Shown here in pieces: positions 35,193 through 43,999 of a stretch of 64,000 bases of DNA (its first letter is position 1; each line of letters begins with the position of its first letter). Below the pieces are notes generated by a model, which saw nothing but the letters and a program-made list of their open reading frames with translations, searched no databases and was not told where the DNA came from. Source of the stretch: Pseudomonas silesiensis. GTDB taxonomy: Bacteria; Pseudomonadota; Gammaproteobacteria; Pseudomonadales; Pseudomonadaceae. A program made the position numbers and the translations under genes. Location of the stretch: NCBI RefSeq assembly GCF_001661075.1, contig NZ_CP014870.1, positions 186,001 to 250,000 on the forward strand, read 5' to 3'.

Positions 35193-36272
35193 TTATGGAC
35201 AATCCATCCGTGTCGAGCCGGGTGCCTGATCGAGCAGTCGCTCTTCAATGGCTGCCCGCTCCCGATCCAGTTCCGCACGCAGCTCTTCTTCGCTCGGCAG
35301 CACTAGCTTGTACTTGCTCGCGAACAGTTGTTCGTTGCCTTCCAGCACTGAATAACGCACCACCGACTCGTCTTTTTGCGCGCAGAGAATGATGCCGACG
35401 GTAGGGCCATCCTCCGCTCCTCGTTTCAGGTCGTCGTACATTCGCACATACATGTCCATCTGGCCGACATCCTGGTGAGTCAGCTCGCCGCGCTTGAGAT
35501 CGAAGATAACGAAGCACTTGAGCAGGTAGTTGTAGAACACAAGGTCGATGTAGAAATCTTTGCTGTCAGTGCTGATGCGTTGTTGGCGGGCGATGAAGGC
35601 AAAGCCTTTGCCCAGCTCGAGAAGGAAGGCCTGGAGCTGATGGATCAATGCCTGTTCGAGATGGGTTTCCTGGGTCAAGCCCGCGTTGGGCATTCCAAGA
35701 AACTCGAGTATTACCGGGTCTCTGATAAAATCACGTGGGTGTGCCTTCATGTTCTGGATGTGGGTGGCGGCTTCGTGTTCGACGGCAGGTCGGTCGCGGC
35801 TTGTCAGCAGGCGCTCGTAGTAGAGGGTGTTGATCTGGCGTTCGAGGGCGCGAGACGACCAGTTTTGGATGGCTGATTCATTCATGTACCAATGGCGGGC
35901 GTGTTCGCTATCGACGCGCAGCAATCGGCGATAGTGAGTCCAGCTCAATTCGGAACGCACTGCGTTCCAAATCGGGAAGGTCTGATAAAAATCGCGCATA
36001 TACCGCAGGTTTCGCTCATCAAATCCTTTTCCGAAATCGGTGGTAAGAACTTTCGCCAGTGTTGGTAGCAATCGCTTGCCGTATGCCGCCCGCCGAGCCC
36101 CCTCCTGCTCGAACTCCACGATATGCCTGCCGATCTGCCAGCAGGTTTGCACCTGGACCGTATCGACCGCTCGCAGCACCTTCTGACGTGCATCGCGGAT
36201 CAATTCGCCAAGATTGCCAAGTAGCGAGGCGAGTTGGGGGTCTTGAGTGTTATCGGGCCTGAGTGCGCTCAT
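35193..36272 (-). CDS. YhcG-family PDDEXK nuclease (DUF1016)
   Basis: The 359-residue protein has the DUF1016 N-terminal helical domain (about 15-170) and a C-terminal PDDEXK nuclease fold with Asp in FYIDLVFYN and the D-x-K pair in VIFDLKRGEL. YhcG proteins are often encoded in defence islands or beside restriction genes; none is adjacent here. ATG 36272 with GGAAGA upstream gives the expected length, while the frame extends upstream without homology. Confidence 0.85.
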   Translation of the reverse strand: MSALRPDNTQDPQLASLLGNLGELIRDARQKVLRAVDTVQVQTCWQIGRHIVEFEQEGARRAAYGKRLLPTLAKVLTTDFGKGFDERNLRYMRDFYQTFPIWNAVRSELSWTHYRRLLRVDSEHARHWYMNESAIQNWSSRALERQINTLYYERLLTSRDRPAVEHEAATHIQNMKAHPRDFIRDPVILEFLGMPNAGLTQETHLEQALIHQLQAFLLELGKGFAFIARQQRISTDSKDFYIDLVFYNYLLKCFVIFDLKRGELTHQDVGQMDMYVRMYDDLKRGAEDGPTVGIILCAQKDESVVRYSVLEGNEQLFASKYKLVLPSEEELRAELDRERAAIEERLLDQAPGSTRMDCP

Positions 36273-36667
36273 GAAGTCTTCCGCAAATGGATGAACAGGC
36301 AGAAGAGGATTGCAGAGGCGGGTAGGTCGACGATGTCGGGCGCGGCTGATAATCGGGAAGGAAAACCCGATGTGTACTGCAGGATCGCTCCGAAGGCAGT
36401 CCCTGCTTAAGCAATACAGCCTGTAGTCCATTTCGTAGTGTGCTCAAGGCGGAGCGGCGTGACACAGCGGATGTTGGCAGCGGTGGCGCGCGCAATCTGG
36501 TTTTTCACTGGAGCGATGGTGAATAGCTGCGTTGTTGAGACAAAGCGATTTCGTTGGCGCTCAAATCCGCAAACAGCAGGCTGTTTGCGGAGTGCCGCGG
36601 GCTAGGGTTTGCGGTTTGCCTAAGCGCGATGGATGGTTTGCTGAAGAAACACCTTGGGGAGGATGAG
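36273..36667. other. intergenic region, 395 bases
   Basis: It lies between the YhcG-type gene start and the lipoprotein gene stop. A small hairpin ATCGGG/CCCGAT is seen at 36352-36371. I see no supported gene. Confidence 0.6.
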
Positions 36668-37105
36668 TCAGCGGATGCTGCGGATGTTGCCTTTGTTGCC
36701 TTTTACGGTGACGGAAACTTTTTTGAAGATGAAGTAGTTTTCTTCGTTCACTTCATAGCGAGGGGCGACGATCAGGTCGGCGCCGGAAGATTTGACCGCT
36801 TTGTAGGCCGCTGCCGATTTGACTGCGCTGACGGGATCCAGGCCAAGGCTACCCAAGCCACCGCTCTCGCCGCCATAGCTGACGCCATCGGCGAACTGGG
36901 AATCACCGCCAAACTTTAGGAAGCCGAACAGGACGTTGACCGAAGACTGGCCGGAGATGGCGTCACCGACAGCGATGTCCGCTTTCAGGTCTGCTTTGAC
37001 GGTACTGTCGATCGGCGAGGATGGCTGGCTGTTGTTGTAGCTGACGCAGCCGCTGGCTGTGGCAATGATGGTCGACAGAGCGAGGAACTTCAAAAGCGTA
37101 TTCAA
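36668..37105 (-). CDS. lipoprotein of unknown function
   Basis: The start is a TTG at 37105 preceded by AAGGAA at correct spacing; the upstream ATG frame does not look like a signal peptide. Initiating at TTG gives 145 residues with a lipobox TASGC ending at residue 20 (MNTLLKFLALSTIIATASGC), so the protein is probably acylated. The C-terminal part contains GADLIVAPRYEVNEE. I do not recognise a family with a known role. Val at position +2 predicts the outer membrane. Confidence 0.7.
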   Translation of the reverse strand: MNTLLKFLALSTIIATASGCVSYNNSQPSSPIDSTVKADLKADIAVGDAISGQSSVNVLFGFLKFGGDSQFADGVSYGGESGGLGSLGLDPVSAVKSAAAYKAVKSSGADLIVAPRYEVNEENYFIFKKVSVTVKGNKGNIRSIR

Positions 37106-37465
37106 GAACTGTTTCCTTACTTTGAAATGCAGGCAAATTTGCTGCTGCATTAGTTTCGCTTTGTAAGGGCGGACACTCCATGAGACACATCCTGAAGCGA
37201 TGTATGAAGGCTTGGATACGACTGGAAGGAAAAGGACGTGGCGGATGTAGGAATATTCAGTGGTGCCAGGGCTTGCTTAATCCCGGGCATAAAAAAACCC
37301 TGAATCTTGCGATTCAGGGTTTTCGGTATTTGGTGTCAGAGGCGGATACAACCCGTTGGTTGCAGGGCTAGTAATTTGGCGTCTCACCCCGTAAAGCTCG
37401 TTCAGCAGGCAGGCTTTCTCAAGGAGACGGAGGTTGTGCGTGCGCTGGTCACCGCCACCCGGTGA
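37106..37465. other. left boundary region of the tRNA-Phe islet
   Basis: This 360-base gap holds the lipoprotein promoter side, then the left 57-bp direct repeat (37279-37335) and a short stretch resembling a decayed tRNA-Phe 3' end. No gene is seen. Confidence 0.65.
37279..37335. repeat. left direct repeat (attL-like)
   Basis: 57 bases identical to 40219-40275, containing a duplicate of the tRNA-Phe terminator hairpin (CCCTGAATC..GATTCAGGG). Confidence 0.9.
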
Positions 37466-38257
37466 TCATAACGAAGCCAAAGAGTGAATAACCGCAACAC
37501 GCAATGGGTTGGTTTCCACGCTCAGCAGCTTGATGGCCAAAGCGCAGCAGACCACGATCAACATGGGTTTAATCAACCGTGGACCGACCCGAACAGCGGC
37601 TCGTGCCCCCAATTGAGCGCCGATGAAGGCTGCTAACGCCATGGCTATGGCAATCGGCCAGATAATCACACCTTTGGTAATGAAGACCGACAGAGAGCCC
37701 AGATTGCATGAGGCATTGGCAAGTTTGGTAAAGCTCATGGCCCGCATCATGCCGAGGCCGCAGAGAAGGACAAACCCGACAATAAAGAAGGAGCCTACAC
37801 CGGGGCCAAATATACCGTCGTAAAAGCCCAGGATGGGGGCCACGGTAAACGAAAAAAGCATGATACCGATTTTCTTGCGCCGATCTTCATTGGCCAGCTT
37901 TGGAGAGAACGCAAAATAGATGGCCACCAGAATCAGCATAATGGGCACGCAAACTTCCAGATAGCGCTTATCAATAGAACTGACCAGCAAGGCACCACTG
38001 GCGCCGCCAATAAATCCGCAGATAACCAGGAATCGGCCTTCGCGCCACTCGATCAGTCCTTTGCGAGCAAAGGTTACAGTTGCCGAAATAGTTGCCGAAG
38101 CGGCCTGGAACTTGTTCGTTGCAATCGCACTGATGGGGTCTACCCCAGCCAAAAACAGTGCAGGCAAGGTTATCAGTCCACCACCACCTGCAATCGCATC
38201 AAAGAAACCGGCGCAAAATGCGACGAGCGCCAACATGCCAATTACATCCCAAGACAT
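37466..38257 (-). CDS. TauE/SafE-family (TSUP) membrane transporter
   Basis: The 263-residue protein has about eight hydrophobic segments and the TSUP pattern near the N-terminus (AGFFDAIAGGGGLITLPAL) and again in the second half (GFYDGIFGPGVGSF). Members move sulfonates, sulfite or organic acids, often as exporters. ATG 38257 has GAGGGA upstream. It starts 77 bases after the oxygenase stop on the same strand and is probably co-transcribed. Inside the islet it is a plausible exporter of the oxygenase product or importer of its substrate; that is inference. Confidence 0.85.
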   Translation of the reverse strand: MSWDVIGMLALVAFCAGFFDAIAGGGGLITLPALFLAGVDPISAIATNKFQAASATISATVTFARKGLIEWREGRFLVICGFIGGASGALLVSSIDKRYLEVCVPIMLILVAIYFAFSPKLANEDRRKKIGIMLFSFTVAPILGFYDGIFGPGVGSFFIVGFVLLCGLGMMRAMSFTKLANASCNLGSLSVFITKGVIIWPIAIAMALAAFIGAQLGARAAVRVGPRLIKPMLIVVCCALAIKLLSVETNPLRVAVIHSLASL

Positions 38258-38334
38258 CCAATTCCCTCATTTGTAATTATTGGGCAGTTCATCCACATGA
38301 CTGTCCATCCAACTGTCTGAATGTGTAACAAAAA

Positions 38335-39426
38335 TCAGCCCTGCAGCCGCAAGGGGTCCTCTGAAATAACAATAGGAGAAGAAAATTTCGACAGCCCAAA
38401 AATGCGAACCAGAACACGTCTGTTGTCTTTGATGACATCGCGGCAGTGCAAGGCCCGGATGTTATTGATAACCATCGCCGACTCTTGCGTCAGCGTGTAC
38501 TCGACTGGAGTTGCCTCGCCTACACCCTGGCAAAGGGCGGCGTATGCCGTTTTGACAAAATTCGAGGCGTTGTCGTTGACCGAAAAACGGTATGAATTGA
38601 AGCGGGCCGCGAAACCGACCTTGTCATCGAACTCCAGAATCGAAACATTACGACCATCCTCTCCCTTGCCACTGACGAAGGAGTCACTGCGGGTGAACTG
38701 AAAATTCCCTGTGGTCAGCGCGAGGCAGTTGGTTACTCCGATTTTTTGCAGTACGGGTGGAAGCGGAATTACGGAGGTCGGTTCCAGGCTTGGGTTCCAC
38801 AGGGCCGAGAGTATAAGCGACGATGGTGAGGGGGAGTGCCCGTCTTGCGCGTTTACGGCGCACCAGTAAGGCGCTTCGGTATGTGGGCCGAGCGCCAGGC
38901 CGGAGTGGGAGCTCAGTTCCTTGATGTCCGGCTCGGCAGGGATTTTGGTCAGTCCGCCACCCTTGAAGTTTGCCACCAGTCGAACCAGTTTTCCTTCGTT
39001 GTCCATGTCGTAAGCAAAGGAGCTGTTATCCACCAGCTTCAACAAAATTTGATTGCGGGCGGCTAGGCAAAGGACATCATGTCGACTTTCCAGGGATGCC
39101 AGGTCCGGAAGTTCATCGGGTGGACGGGTATCGGTGATCTTTTGTAATCCATCAAAAATCAGTAGAGAAACAAGACCATCGGAATAAGCGCCAAGCAGTT
39201 CGCATTGATCCTTCGAGAATGAGAATTTTAACTCTGTGGCGGCCAGATAAGCTTTGGACTTGGCTCCCGAGGCTTGCGGTCCGCCAATGGCAGCCAGTTC
39301 TTCAGAGTATCTGTGAAGCAATTTTGATTGTTGAGTATCAAAGCTGAATGTTCTGACTTCCTGTTCAGCAAAAGACTCGGCGGTTTCGATACGTTGTTTA
39401 ATTGCTTCCATCATTGTGATGTTCAT
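38335..39426 (-). CDS. clavaminate-synthase-like Fe(II)/2-oxoglutarate-dependent oxygenase
   Basis: The 363-residue protein carries the non-haem iron facial triad: His182-Thr-Glu184 in LGPHTEAPYW, and distal His327 in RALHCRD. Arg341, 14 residues after His327, matches the 2-oxoglutarate-binding Arg of clavaminate synthase and asparagine oxygenase. Similarity outside these motifs is low. It should hydroxylate a small molecule, perhaps an amino acid. The ATG at 39426 has GGGG about 10 bases upstream. It heads a two-gene unit with the TSUP transporter, in a region with lower GC than the core genes. Confidence 0.72.
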   Translation of the reverse strand: MNITMMEAIKQRIETAESFAEQEVRTFSFDTQQSKLLHRYSEELAAIGGPQASGAKSKAYLAATELKFSFSKDQCELLGAYSDGLVSLLIFDGLQKITDTRPPDELPDLASLESRHDVLCLAARNQILLKLVDNSSFAYDMDNEGKLVRLVANFKGGGLTKIPAEPDIKELSSHSGLALGPHTEAPYWCAVNAQDGHSPSPSSLILSALWNPSLEPTSVIPLPPVLQKIGVTNCLALTTGNFQFTRSDSFVSGKGEDGRNVSILEFDDKVGFAARFNSYRFSVNDNASNFVKTAYAALCQGVGEATPVEYTLTQESAMVINNIRALHCRDVIKDNRRVLVRIFGLSKFSSPIVISEDPLRLQG

Positions 39427-40218
39427 GTTGTATCGGCCCCTTATTTTTTTAATGAGGGCGGTTGGCTGTTTCGATAATGCATCTCGCTTCGAGAGGAAGC
39501 ACTGGACCGCTGTCGAATGGGTAGAGGATTAAATATTTTAGGTGTGCGCAGGGAGCTGTAACGCGACAGTCCAAGCGTCGTTGAATGCCCAGTAATGTTT
39601 GGTACCGATATTTTGGCGACTTGAAACAACAGTGGAGGCTCTTTACTTAAAGCTTGTCCTTCATCAACTACTATTATGGGTGTGATTTAAATCTCCCTGA
39701 AGTCCGATCTATAATAGATAGACGATTTACTAAAAAGCCGGGAGAGCCTATCATCAAAATAACGGGCGGCAAATTTTTGGTTGTTTCATAAAAATACAAC
39801 CGTGATGATTTTATTGAAGAAGAGAATCTATTGATATCCCTTCCAGAAGACTTGTGTGCAGGGCGATCCGAGCGCTAACCAAGATGCCTCTTAAATACTT
39901 CCTGAGGGTTGGACGAAGCGCTTGGGAGATTGCAGGCCGCTTTCCATAACCAGTCCCTGCCATGCTCTCCAGCGTTTCCAGGCCTCTCAAACGCTGGGCA
40001 CATACCCAATATCCTTGAGTGCATCCCATAACATGCGCTTGCGATCGGAATCCATGATCACCGTGGCGTAGCAGTGCCCCTTATGCAGCGCGAACCCGTC
40101 CAAGACCAGGCGCCTGCCTCACGAAGGTCGAAGGTGGCCGCGTTTCGCTCCAGCCGTCGTTTGTCGACGATCCATGATCGACTGCATCGAAGATGGCAGC
40201 CGGAATCGAGCCGGATCA
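39427..40218. other. AT-rich right part of the islet
   Basis: About 800 bases without an intact gene. The first 400 bases, rich in A and T, should hold the oxygenase promoter; bases about 39890-40120 carry a transposase remnant. Confidence 0.65.
39888..40122 (-). pseudogene. remnant of an ISL3-type transposase
   Basis: On the minus strand the frame reads VLDGFALHKGHCYATVIMDS, closely resembling the DEFALHKGHRYATVI motif around the first catalytic Asp of ISL3-family transposases. A second piece, AWKRWRAWQGLVMESGLQSP, resembles the C-terminal part. The middle is missing, stops interrupt the frame, and the DEF Glu is replaced by Gly. Confidence 0.55.
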
Positions 40219-40275
40219 AATCCCGGGCATAAAAAAACCCTGAATCTTGCGATTCAGGGTTTTCGGTATTTGGTG
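40219..40275. repeat. right direct repeat (attR-like)
   Basis: 57 bases identical to 37279-37335, joining directly to the 3' end of tRNA-Phe. Confidence 0.9.
40231..40262 (-). terminator. terminator of tRNA-Phe
   Basis: On the minus strand AAAACCCTGAATC, loop, GATTCAGGGTTTTTTT is a standard terminator 10 bases after the tRNA. A duplicate lies in the left repeat. Confidence 0.85.
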
Positions 40276-40346
40276 CCCAGAGACGGAATCGAACCGCCGA
40301 CACGGGGATTTTCAATCCCCTGCTCTACCGACTGAGCTATCTGGGC
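40271..40346 (-). tRNA. tRNA-Phe (anticodon GAA)
   Basis: The minus strand folds as GCCCAGA acceptor, AGCTCAGTCGGTAGAGC D-arm, anticodon stem GGGGA/TCCCC with loop TTGAAAA (anticodon GAA), T-loop GGTTCGATTCC, and encoded CCA. Confidence 0.95.
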
Positions 40347-40449
40347 AACGGGGCGCATTAAACGGGTTTTTCAGGGGGTCGTCAAGCAAGTTTTCATAAA
40401 AAATTTAATTATTACCGTCGCTTACGATCCGACCCCCGAGAAATCAGGG

Positions 40450-40722
40450 TTATTCGGCCGGTGGAACGTAGCCGTCAGCCTTGGCGTAATCCTCGCCGGA
40501 AAAGAACTTGTCCATCTCGCCCTGGAGATATTTGCGGTCTTCGGCGTTCATCATGTTCAGGCGTTTTTCGTTGATCAGCAGGGTCTGGTGTTTTTGCCAG
40601 TCGGCCCAGGCCTTGGCCGAGACGTGGTCAAAAATGTCCTGGCCTTTGGCGCCCGGGAATGGAGCGCGCTCCAGGGCGGGCAATTCTTCTTTGTACTTGC
40701 GGCACATGATGGTGCGGGTCAT
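40450..40722 (-). CDS. yggX: Fe(II)-trafficking/oxidative-damage protection protein YggX
   Basis: The 90-residue protein starts with the YggX signature [17 protein letters not shown], including the conserved Cys7, and has the usual length. It protects iron-sulfur proteins from oxidative damage. It overlaps the mutY stop by 4 bases; MutY is itself a [4Fe-4S] enzyme, and this pairing is widespread in gammaproteobacteria. Confidence 0.93.
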
Positions 40723-41786
40723 GACGACTCTCCTGCGTTCAATACGGCGGCCGCGCGTTCGAGCAAGGTTTTGACCGGGGCGGCAAGGCCCAGGCGCGGC
40801 GGGGTGGCGAGGTTATACCAGAGCCAGTCGGCCTCGGCCACGTGATGGCCGGCCTCCTGGACCTGAACTAGCCAGGGTTCGATAGCCAGTTGGAAATGGC
40901 TGAAGGTGTGTATCAGGCTCGGCAATGCCTGTTGGCTGCCCAGTGCCAGCGAGTGCTGCGATGCCAGATGTTGCAGGTCGTCGAGGTCGTCGAGTTCCGG
41001 CAGGCTCCAGAGGCCGCCCCACAGGCCCGTGGAAGGGCGCCGGTAAAGCAGGATCGCGCCTTCGCCGTTGGCGAGCATCGGCATCAGCGTGCGCTTCTGT
41101 GGGATGGCCTTGCGCGGCTTCGGGATCGGGTAGCGGGTCTCGAGGCCGAGCATGTGCGCTTCGCAACCCTTTTCCAGCGGGCAGAGCAGGCAACTCGGCT
41201 TGCTGCGGGTGCAGAGCGTGGCGCCCAGATCCATCATCGCCTGGGTGTAGGCATTGACCCGATCATGGGGTGTAAAGCGCTCGGCATTGGCCCACAGCTG
41301 TTTCGAGACCTTGGGCTCGCCCGGATAACCCTCTTGCGCGGTAAAGCGCGCCAGCACCCGTTTGACGTTGCCGTCGAGGATCGGCGCCCGCAGGCCCATG
41401 CTCAGGCTGGCGATGGCGCCCGCCGTGGACAGGCCGATGCCCGGCAGGTCCGTCAGTTTTTCCACGTCCCGGGGAAACTCGCCGCCATAGTCGGCGACAA
41501 CGATCTTCGCGGTCTTCTGCAAGTTGCGCGCGCGGGTGTAGTACCCGAGCCCGGTCCACAGGTGCAGTACTTCGTCCTCCGGTGCGGCGGCCAGGGCTTC
41601 GACCGTCGGCAGCGACGCCATGAAGCGGTCGAAATAATTCAGCACCGTACTGACCTGGGTTTGCTGCAACATGATTTCCGAGACCCACACCCGATAGGGG
41701 GTGATGCCCTGTTGCCAGGGCAAATCGTGGCGGCCGTGGCGGTCGTACCAGTCCAGTACCGCCGAAGAGAACTGCTCGGCTCTCAT
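40719..41786 (-). CDS. mutY: adenine DNA glycosylase MutY
   Basis: MutY removes adenine mispaired with 8-oxoguanine. The 355-residue protein has the helix-hairpin-helix [15 protein letters not shown] with the catalytic Asp region downstream ([11 protein letters not shown]), the four-Cys iron-sulfur loop beginning [17 protein letters not shown], and a C-terminal Nudix-like domain that reads 8-oxoG. It is coupled by 4-base overlaps to the upstream AsmA gene and the downstream yggX. Confidence 0.94.
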
Positions 41787-43999
41787 CGCTTGAACAACCC
41801 CTTCAGCGCATCTTTGAGTTCAGGACTGACCTTGTCGCCCAACTTCTCATCGATTTTTTCGCTGATTTTGTCGCCGGCCATTTTGCCCGCGACCTTGCCC
41901 ATGCGTTCATTGTCGAGGCGACAAGCCTTGGCACCCAACTCCAGTGGGCCGCGGCAGCGCAGTGGCCATTCGATGCCGACGAATTTCTCGCCCACCTGGC
42001 AGGCCGGGTCTGGCATGTCGCTCTTGTCGCCTTCGACGATGATGCCCACGCGGTAATCCATGCCCAGCACTCGCAGGTCGACATCGCCGTCGCCGTTGAC
42101 GGTCATGCCCGGGATGCGCACTTTCAGGTCCGGGTTGCTGGCCACGCCATTACGGAAGGTCAGGTTGCCCTTGAGCTCCTGGAACGGCGTGTCCTTGCCC
42201 CGTGGCTCGCCGCTGAGGGTTTTGCGGTTGAGGGTGGCGATGCCTTTGCACAGTTGCTGTTCGAGATTGGCATTGAGCAATACGCCATTGTTGATGACGA
42301 AACTGGCGTTGCCGTTGAGGCTGTCGATCAGCGCGCTCTGACTGTTGCCGCTGCCGGTCAGGTTGCTGTTGAGCGTGACCAGGCCCTTGACTGGCGGATT
42401 TTTACCTTGGCTTTCGAGGATTTTTTCTACCGGTACCTGGTTGATGTGCGTCTGCATGTTCAGCGTAGGCACCGACTGGCGTACGTCCAGGGTGCCCTTG
42501 GCTTCGAAGTTGCCGTCGTACAGGTTGCCGCGCAGGTTTTCCAGGGTCAGCAAACCACCCAGGCCGGTGGCTTTGAGTGCAGCGTTCTGGATCGGCAGTT
42601 TGTCGAGGGTCAGCTGGCCGAAGGTCAGGTCGGCGTCCACATCGAGTTTGCTCAGGCGTTCCACCGGCAATAGCCGCGCAGTGCTCCAGGGGCCTTTGGT
42701 CGGTGATTGCGGCAGTGGAGTGCTGCCCGCACTGGCCATGGCATCGGCCTCGGTGCTGGCGACTTCGGCTTCGCGCACCTGTTTCGCGCTGTTGGCTTCG
42801 GCGGATTTTGGCGGCAAGTAACGATCAACGTTGAAGGTGTCAGCCTTGAGGCTCGCCCGCAGCGATTGTTTGGCGAAGTCCTCGACGGCGATACGACCGC
42901 TGAAGGTGCTGTCGTCGACCTTCAGGTTGATGTCGTCGAACGACACGCTGGTCGGTGTTCCGGAAAGACGGCTGGCCAACTCGACTTTGCTCAGGCTGCC
43001 TTCAGCCATGGCCGGGAGTTTCTGGCCGATGCTGTCGACGAATTTCGCCAGGTCAAACTGGGCAATCGACAGGCCGCCGCTGATTTGCGGGGTCTTGTCG
43101 AGGTCGTTGACCTTCAATTCACCCAAAGCGCGCAGTTGATTGGCAGATAGCTTGATACCGGTCCATTCGGCGACGTTGGCCGCTTTATCCAGCAGCAACT
43201 GGCCTTGGGCGGCGAAGGTAATGGTTTTGCCTTGCAATGGATCACCGGCGACTTCACCGGACAGTTTCATGTCTTCGAACTTGTAGCGTTGCAGCGCACG
43301 CTCGAAGCGCAGTTCGCCATTGAGCTCGGTACGTACTCGCAGAACCGGTTGGTTGGAGCCGAGAAACGCGGTGAGCTTGATTGGAATATTGGTCGAGTCG
43401 TGAACCGCCCCGGTGCTCAGCTGGATGCTTTCGGCGCTGAACAGCTTGCCGGTTTTTTCGTCGCTGTATTCAACGCGGGCGTTGTTGACGGTCAGGCTGT
43501 CGATGTCCAGGCGGATCGGCTGGGCCGGTTTTTCCGCTTGGGCGGTGGTCTGCGATGCTGGAGCGTCGGTGGCGGCGGGCGGTGTGGCAGATGCCGGGGC
43601 CTTGCCGATGTCTTCCCAGTTTCCGTGGCCGTCCTTGTCGCGATTAAGGCGCAGATTCAGGCCTTCGACACGCACGTCGCTCATCTGCACTTCACGACGC
43701 AACAGCGGCAGCACGCGCACCGAGAGGCCCAGCATTTTCAAGTCAGCGAACGGCTCGGTGGGCTTGGCCAGGGTTGCGACACTGGCTTCGTGCAATTCCA
43801 GGCCTAGCCAGGGGAACAGGCTCCAGCCGATATCGCCATTGAGCGTCAGCTCGATGTGGGCCTTGTCGCGGGCAATCTGGCGAATCTCGTCTTTATAGTC
43901 GTTGGGATCGAAGAGGTGGGTCAGGGCAAAGCCCAGCGCCACAATGATCAGCAACAGCCCGAGGAGTACCAGACCCAGGATTTTGCCGAACGCTTTCAT
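41783..43999 (-). CDS. AsmA-family envelope protein
   Basis: The 738-residue protein has one N-terminal membrane helix (about residues 7-28), the AsmA N-domain signature ([15 protein letters not shown], then [17 protein letters not shown]), and a long beta-rich periplasmic part ending in the AsmA C-domain ([20 protein letters not shown]). AsmA-like proteins help phospholipid movement between membranes and outer-membrane assembly. A Pro/Ala-rich linker occurs near residues 130-160. It leads the asmA-mutY-yggX operon. Confidence 0.9.

Follow-up and report, generated by a model that had tools for sequence, protein, structure and literature searches.

Downstream of the tRNA-Phe gene of Pseudomonas silesiensis (assembly GCF_001661075.1, contig NZ_CP014870.1), a segment of about 3 kb lies between two identical 57-nt sequences and carries genes for an oxygenase-like protein and a transporter, which raises the question of whether it is a mobile islet placed there by an integrase, as the initial annotation proposed, and of how it moves. 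The window analyzed here is the 64,000-nt stretch at contig positions 186,001 to 250,000; coordinates refer to it unless stated otherwise, and the features are collected in Table 1. We find that the segment is a real and fairly ordinary exchangeable islet, not a freshly inserted mobile element. The reading that we favor, with a probability of about 0.58, is that this integrase-less, cargo-only islet downstream of tRNA-Phe stems from an old integrase insertion and is now exchanged mainly by homologous recombination in the terminator and tRNA sequences.

A repeat search of the window confirmed that the two 57-nt copies, which start 2,940 nt apart, are identical throughout. The tRNA gene located by ARAGORN lies on the minus strand, so that the right copy consists of the last five bases of the tRNA (CACCA) and the 52 nt downstream, in agreement with its earlier description as the tRNA-Phe terminator running into the 3′ CCA. 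The mark of a tRNA-borne islet, a direct repeat that includes the tRNA 3′ end, is thus present, with 5 of its 57 bp belonging to the tRNA; longer tRNA remnants occur only in relatives. Folded on the minus strand, the repeat unit forms a strong intrinsic terminator (−22.5 kcal/mol, equaled by none of 200 shuffled sequences), and the fold of the left copy shows a 14-pair hairpin followed by U's. The entries of a simple terminator scan of the region did not include this repeat-unit terminator. Beside the tRNA, the hairpin is nearly invariant among the carriers displayed and is probably under selection. Because the repeat is mostly terminator and nearly invariant in the relatives compared, a perfect tRNA-end repeat is no proof of recent integrase activity. 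We propose from its position that the left copy has been kept as the terminator of the tauE operon. A recognizable left terminator between tauE and a neighboring gene, X, was present in 16 of the 44 islet loci examined, one of them the window, where the whole 52 nt are found; each of the 16 beats all 100 of its shuffles, and that of locus L179 is weak. In the P. silesiensis genome, a single contig of 6,823,539 bp, sequences of high identity to the terminator part are confined to the two repeat sites, and the second tRNA-Phe gene, at 4,687,857, has only query positions 44 to 128 in common. As a separate observation, this second locus (L002, G000:C1:4686357-4689443) has a different terminator and, on its 5′ side, a tyrosine-integrase frame (PF00589 match at 4689327).

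The sequence after the left copy had been described as a decayed tRNA, and this description stood over about 20 nt. In the best of three registers, these agree with the tRNA at 14 of 20 positions, a score reached by 5 of 63,731 other 20-mers of the window; this in-register comparison was picked after the outcome of a 40-nt end-free global alignment was known, in which the left remnant and the tRNA showed no significant resemblance (386 of 2,000 shuffles as good). The remnant in the relative G067 reaches the tRNA anticodon loop, and those of G158 and G172 extend to about position 31. A one-C deletion common to the left remnants of the window, G067, G158 and G172 was considered as proof of a single origin and rejected: because it falls in a CCC run, it is only suggestive of common origin. 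It is missing from L154 and present in the displaced copy of G403.

The initial annotation had called for a search for strains with an empty tRNA-Phe site and a single copy of the repeat, and such sites were found in the nearest relatives compared, G229 (mutY 96.6%, aap 97.4%) and G387 (mutY 96.2%). A query that joined the window flanks with the islet left out (36431 to 37335 plus 40276 to 41800) aligned with G387 unbroken through the junction (query positions 18 to 2430, 94.75%, 8 gap bases) and with G229 from the repeat onwards (849 to 2430, 96.84%, no gaps). The order in G387 is gene X, a lipoprotein-like module, one terminator and the tRNA, and that in G229 is gene X, 68 bp, one terminator and the tRNA. 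From these alignments, the islet difference amounts to one repeat copy plus 2,883 bp. In the right flank, G229 is nearest overall (92 to 100% in most 100-bp bins, 88% in one); no long donor-like stretch was seen there, and a few 100-bp bins in conserved genes are 1 to 3 points closer to other species. Both islet junctions thus seem to lie in the terminator/tRNA block, and in the window the islet sits exactly between the lipoprotein module with its terminator and the tRNA. Its presence therefore varies among close relatives at the exact tRNA-adjacent site, which supports a discrete islet of variable occurrence at a tRNA that is an insertion hotspot; conservation of the same 3 kb in all relatives, named beforehand as evidence against mobility, was not what we found. 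A replacement of the gene X allele of G229 from another species was considered and dropped, its best match being 87.8% versus 87.2% to its sister G387.

Insertions in two relatives show what such an event leaves behind at this tRNA. In G258 and G282, the native terminator lies at the far end of the insertion together with a tRNA 3′ part that is intact over 45 of 45 nt and ends in the anticodon loop. The G258 insertion (L147 9670-11023) spans 1.18 kb with no frame of at least 110 aa inside and is apparently very small and recent. At its tRNA end it has a terminator identical over 50 nt to the one beside tRNA-Phe in G015, which was not found in the other loci compared; insertions can thus carry their own tRNA terminator. 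Since integration displaces the tRNA 3′ part and terminator of the recipient together, a recent event of this type should leave 45 intact tRNA bases. The left end in the window has five and then decays, and so represents neither a recent nor an intact attachment site. The idea that the integrase which brought in the islet made the perfect repeats by duplicating its attachment site is therefore not supported.

The history that we favor, as pieced together from the relatives, would run in three steps. A tyrosine integrase would have inserted an ancestral element by a crossover in the anticodon loop of tRNA-Phe, so that the 3′ part of the tRNA came to lie, with the terminator, at the far end. The integrase and the remaining element would then have been lost, leaving the oxygenase-tauE operon, with the tRNA fragment decaying and the displaced terminator possibly staying as that of the operon. 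Finally, the islet would have been gained, lost and exchanged among Pseudomonas, for which there is comparative evidence, with homologous recombination in the identical terminator/tRNA block and the flanks as the likely mechanism; this would yield clean presence and absence as well as stacking with other modules.

An alternative that we consider unlikely is that the islet behaves as a cis-mobilizable element (CIME), with cargo between functional left and right attachment sites (attL and attR) and the integrase supplied in trans by co-resident or incoming islands that use tRNA-Phe. Integrases of ∼400 aa directly adjoin tRNA-Phe in G030, G002 and G403 (those of G030 and G002 are 86% and 72% identical to that of G403), and G403 and G282 show accretion, another insertion with integrase matches lying between the tRNA and the oxygenase-tauE islet; the integrase of the G282 insertion is unlike (27%) and ∼8 kb from the tRNA. 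The G258 stretch, which has no frame of 110 aa or more and lies behind a perfect 45-nt tRNA fragment, also suits such an element, as does its G015-like terminator. The window, however, lacks the intact pair of attL and attR that defines a CIME, its left tRNA part being decayed beyond 5 nt, and its own genome holds no close relative of the tRNA-adjoining G403 integrase, the best match being 40% identical (the G282 integrase was not used as a query). The islet is indeed without an integrase, as the initial annotation had noted, but the supply of one in trans, which it had allowed for, is not evident.

The distribution of the islet speaks to its exchange. A relative of the oxygenase at E ≤ 1e-20 was found in 55 of 398 genomes of the genus, and more than 20 Pseudomonas species have the islet next to this tRNA, while many closely related ones lack it. 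Among 25 loci with at least 76% oxygenase identity (L058-L082, window included; the broken oxygenase copies of G016, G172 and G253 are outside this set), 21 have an intact tRNA-Phe within the 1.5-kb flank; in G282 and G403 the terminator adjoins just a tRNA fragment, and G390 and G018 lack the tRNA there. Five fetched loci at ∼50% oxygenase identity all have a tauE neighbor, and none has a tRNA in the flank (0 of 5). A scan of named genomes, some of which also have G handles, gave 41 loci from strains that include ones named P. mandelii, P. arsenicoxydans, P. jessenii, P. koreensis and P. laurylsulfatiphila: 31 have an intact tRNA-Phe in the stretch, in two (L179, L188) that end is truncated or fragmentary, and eight have no tRNA-Phe, and in 4 of the 31 (L164, L181, L184, L186) another insertion separates the tRNA from the islet. 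When 63 fetched relatives with this terminator beside the tRNA were scored, 23 carried oxygenase/tauE, 2 the lipoprotein module only and 14 were empty (gene X within 250 bp), the remaining 24 having something else or no scored gene X; because this set was partly chosen as carriers, these fractions are not population frequencies. Carriage of the islet by phages or plasmids was rejected on the searches made: tblastn with the oxygenase gave no match among 72,556 plasmid records at E ≤ 1e-10 and none among 50,697 phage records at E ≤ 1e-5, none of 43 viral-contig stretches that matched a peptide pattern encoded an oxygenase relative, and islet blastn against phages gave 34 records, in the 20 listed of which the match was the terminator/tRNA end of the query only. 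Separately, G390 and G018 (L090, L091) carry the oxygenase-tauE pair elsewhere, with no tRNA in 19 kb, and both of their oxygenases are 84% identical to that of the window.

Whether this pattern arose by exchange or by inheritance was addressed with trees. On a 77-taxon mutY+aap tree, islet presence (24 carriers) requires 19 changes, and 47 of 200 label shuffles get by with no more. In the comparison of 35 carriers, islet and core trees have 4 of 32 splits in common, compared with 9 of 32 for the two core genes with each other, and the islet data lose 960 log-likelihood units on the core tree compared with 311 to 334 for the core genes on each other's trees, the alignments differing in length. 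This strong whole-tree conflict, the near-random presence over the tree and the many independent losses that vertical descent alone would need argue against an islet that is ancestral in the clade, inherited vertically and lost from G229 and G387 by deletion between the two terminators, an account that we hold to be a little less probable again than in trans mobilization. In its favor, islet identities track core divergence for many taxa, the sister pairs G067/L161, L154/L155 and L164/L168 agree in the islet and core trees, and deletion between perfect direct repeats is easy and produces the G387 structure.

Several points also count against exchange by recombination as the main process. The relatives on the 77-taxon tree were partly chosen as carriers. 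In the approximately unbiased test, every data set rejects the tree of every other, core genes included, which indicates that recombination is general here, with the islet clearly worse. The tauE and oxygenase trees themselves conflict (9 of 32 splits), and islet divergence is roughly core-like (nucleotide identities to G156 of 91% for tauE, 83% for the oxygenase, 93% for mutY and 83% for abh), which would also fit an old islet in the window lineage that was lost in G229 and G387. Of 44 carriers, 28 show no recognizable left terminator, RecA would have only a short substrate in 57 bp, and in the comparisons made no recombination event was observed and no donor identified. A fair reading of these sequence comparisons would be that the islet history is a mixture of inheritance, loss and exchange, in which either a recent gain by the window lineage or a loss in its two nearest relatives may lie behind the difference between them. 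A tandem duplication of tRNA-Phe and its terminator, followed by decay of the left tRNA and the arrival of unrelated genes between the copies, is highly improbable: closely spaced tRNA-Phe pairs do occur in G041, G042 and G053, from other families of the order, but Pseudomonas left ends show the tRNA 3′ part only (at most 41 to 45 nt), as integration predicts, and single-copy empty sites are common (14 of 63).

The same slot holds other modules. The lipoprotein-like gene (lipo) is also found here in G387 and G059, which lack the islet, and in G149, where the order differs, and so looks like a second exchangeable module. The order in G149 is gene X, a terminator remnant, tauE, an oxygenase stub, the lipoprotein gene, a terminator and the tRNA, which reverses the modules of the window. 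In L186, three terminators delimit the islet and a second module of 5 kb, and in G119 and G297 a pair of terminators encloses different cargo. The presence of both repeats in strains that lack the intervening genes had been named as an outcome contrary to mobility; G119 and G297 present it literally, but their other cargo fits a shared slot and does not refute mobility. A biosynthetic-looking cluster occupies the slot in G033, G019, G119 and G320, and a very large repetitive protein does so in L184, L181, L164 and G297. By eye, we take the cluster to resemble sbnA/sbnB, and in L040, L044, L121 and L124 to encode presumably a pyridoxal phosphate synthase-like protein, a dehydrogenase-like protein, a flavin adenine dinucleotide protein, a permease and a GntR/MocR-type regulator; not all of these frames are present in all four loci. 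Tentatively, the region downstream of tRNA-Phe in members of the P. fluorescens group may be a terminator-partitioned cassette slot, in which modules are stacked between terminator copies and swapped across species by terminator/tRNA recombination without an integrase, each displaced terminator being adopted by its module. That the hairpin is instead an attC-like, folded-strand recombinase substrate into which terminator-bounded modules were inserted one by one is barely credible, since the differing cargo between terminator copies (window, G119, G297, L186) and the window junction within the terminator/CCA block, which suit it, are equally explained by homologous recombination, the G258 and G282 insertions cross over in the anticodon loop, and no candidate recombinase turned up, although no search was aimed at one.

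The islet belongs to a known kind, the att-bounded remnant of CIME-like build, and its particular features are a repeat dominated by a terminator and a decayed tRNA part. Like CIMEs and the accretion products at tRNA sites, it has cargo between att-like repeats with no integrase or transfer genes, and in G403 and G282 it shares the tRNA with integrase-bearing insertions arranged in tandem with it; it differs in that attL is decayed in the window, the repeat is mostly terminator rather than a tRNA 3′ half, and mobilization in trans is putative. The tandem ssrA islands of Dehalococcoides are likewise stacked downstream of one RNA gene between repeats of its 3′ end, and some, without an integration module, are discussed as possible CIMEs (PMC3146451); there the repeat is a 20-bp ssrA sequence and the enzyme a serine recombinase, whereas the slot described here is a tyrosine-integrase site at a tRNA with a terminator-containing repeat. 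In the same genus, the account of P. fluorescens Pf-5 describes small tRNA-bounded prophage remnants and applies the Williams 2002 sublocation classes of tRNA attachment sites (PMC2647930). Its 2.6-kb prophage 05, between 84-bp repeats at tRNA-Cys, is similarly a few-kb remnant between direct repeats that overlap a tRNA, but it keeps a truncated integrase and a phage gene, whereas the islet has neither and recurs in many species. We found no published description of this tRNA-Phe slot in a literature search that covered subscription journals thinly, and we claim no priority. The locus offers a natural series of empty site, perfect 45-nt scar, decayed scar, terminator-only scar and stacks, which on the favored reading would show an integrase-placed island aging into a cassette exchanged by recombination.

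Table 1. Features of the islet and its surroundings (window coordinates)
Feature	Position	Strand	Basis or remark
tRNA-Phe (GAA)	40271-40346	-	ARAGORN
Right repeat: tRNA-Phe terminator and tRNA 3′ CACCA	40219-40275	-	Repeat search and ARAGORN
Left repeat: displaced copy of the tRNA-Phe terminator and CACCA, downstream of tauE	37279-37335	-	57/57 match to 40219-40275; hairpin z −3.94
Decayed remnant of the tRNA-Phe 3′ part	37336-37355	-	14/20 in-register matches; longer homologous remnants in G067, G158, G172
tauE: TauE/SafE-family permease, 263 aa	37466-38257	-	PF01925, E 2.2e-52
Fe(II)/2-oxoglutarate oxygenase-like protein, 363 aa	38335-39426	-	Alignment, AlphaFold, Foldseek; Pfam TauD at just E 0.2
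Right islet part, no gene assigned	39427-40218	.	Longer than in carriers compared
lipo: small lipoprotein-like gene	36668-37150	-	Separate neighboring module; no Pfam match
Gene X, 3′ remnant; small secreted-protein-like	36451-36525	+	X adjoins the empty site in relatives

The islet contains two assigned genes and, as in a CIME, no integrase or transfer genes; of the 12 PF00589 matches counted for the P. silesiensis genome, the 11 listed all lie outside contig positions 223279-226275. The cargo had been called an oxygenase and a transporter, and both names proved sound, the second from its Pfam match. The oxygenase-like protein received no Pfam assignment at 1e-3 and none in Pfam or NCBIfam above the cut-off, and a PDB sequence search gave a single match, to an antibody chain (E 0.65). 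Across 35 aligned sequences, residues H182, E184 and H327 do not vary. The AlphaFold model has a mean predicted local distance difference test score (pLDDT) of 77 and a predicted template modeling score of 0.83, with residues 170 to 183, which include H182, and 189 to 199 below a pLDDT of 50. Its top Foldseek matches were the arginine/lysine hydroxylases OrfP, CmnC, VioC and KDO1, and the 50 matches listed had E values of 4e-16 to 8e-13, a probability of 1.00 and TMq values of 0.60 to 0.69. The name oxygenase is thus well founded on the fold matches and the invariant residues, though the H182 loop is modeled with low confidence, and the same evidence, fold and HxD/E...H motif alike, agrees with a predicted Fe(II)/2-oxoglutarate oxygenase of the amino-acid-hydroxylase type. 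The protein resembles VioC, OrfP, CmnC and KDO1 in predicted fold and HxE...H residues and differs from them in being 16 to 20% identical and paired with a TauE/SafE permease. The oxygenase/TauE pair represents a widespread, uncharacterized operon worth assaying. To the right of the oxygenase gene, 39640-40218 is single copy in the genome, and a transposase piece suspected by eye at 39990-40112 was discarded, as it had no Pfam match.

A few observations concern neighboring genes. In G057 (L096 7832-8713), an alpha/beta-hydrolase gene overlaps the end of tauE, and the operon may thus have three genes in that group. Gene X is represented in the window by its 3′ tail only and is longer beside the empty site of relatives. 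Next to it, the gene for a YhcG/DUF1016 PDDEXK nuclease (35193-36431, minus strand) is broken up, partial or not found in several relatives.

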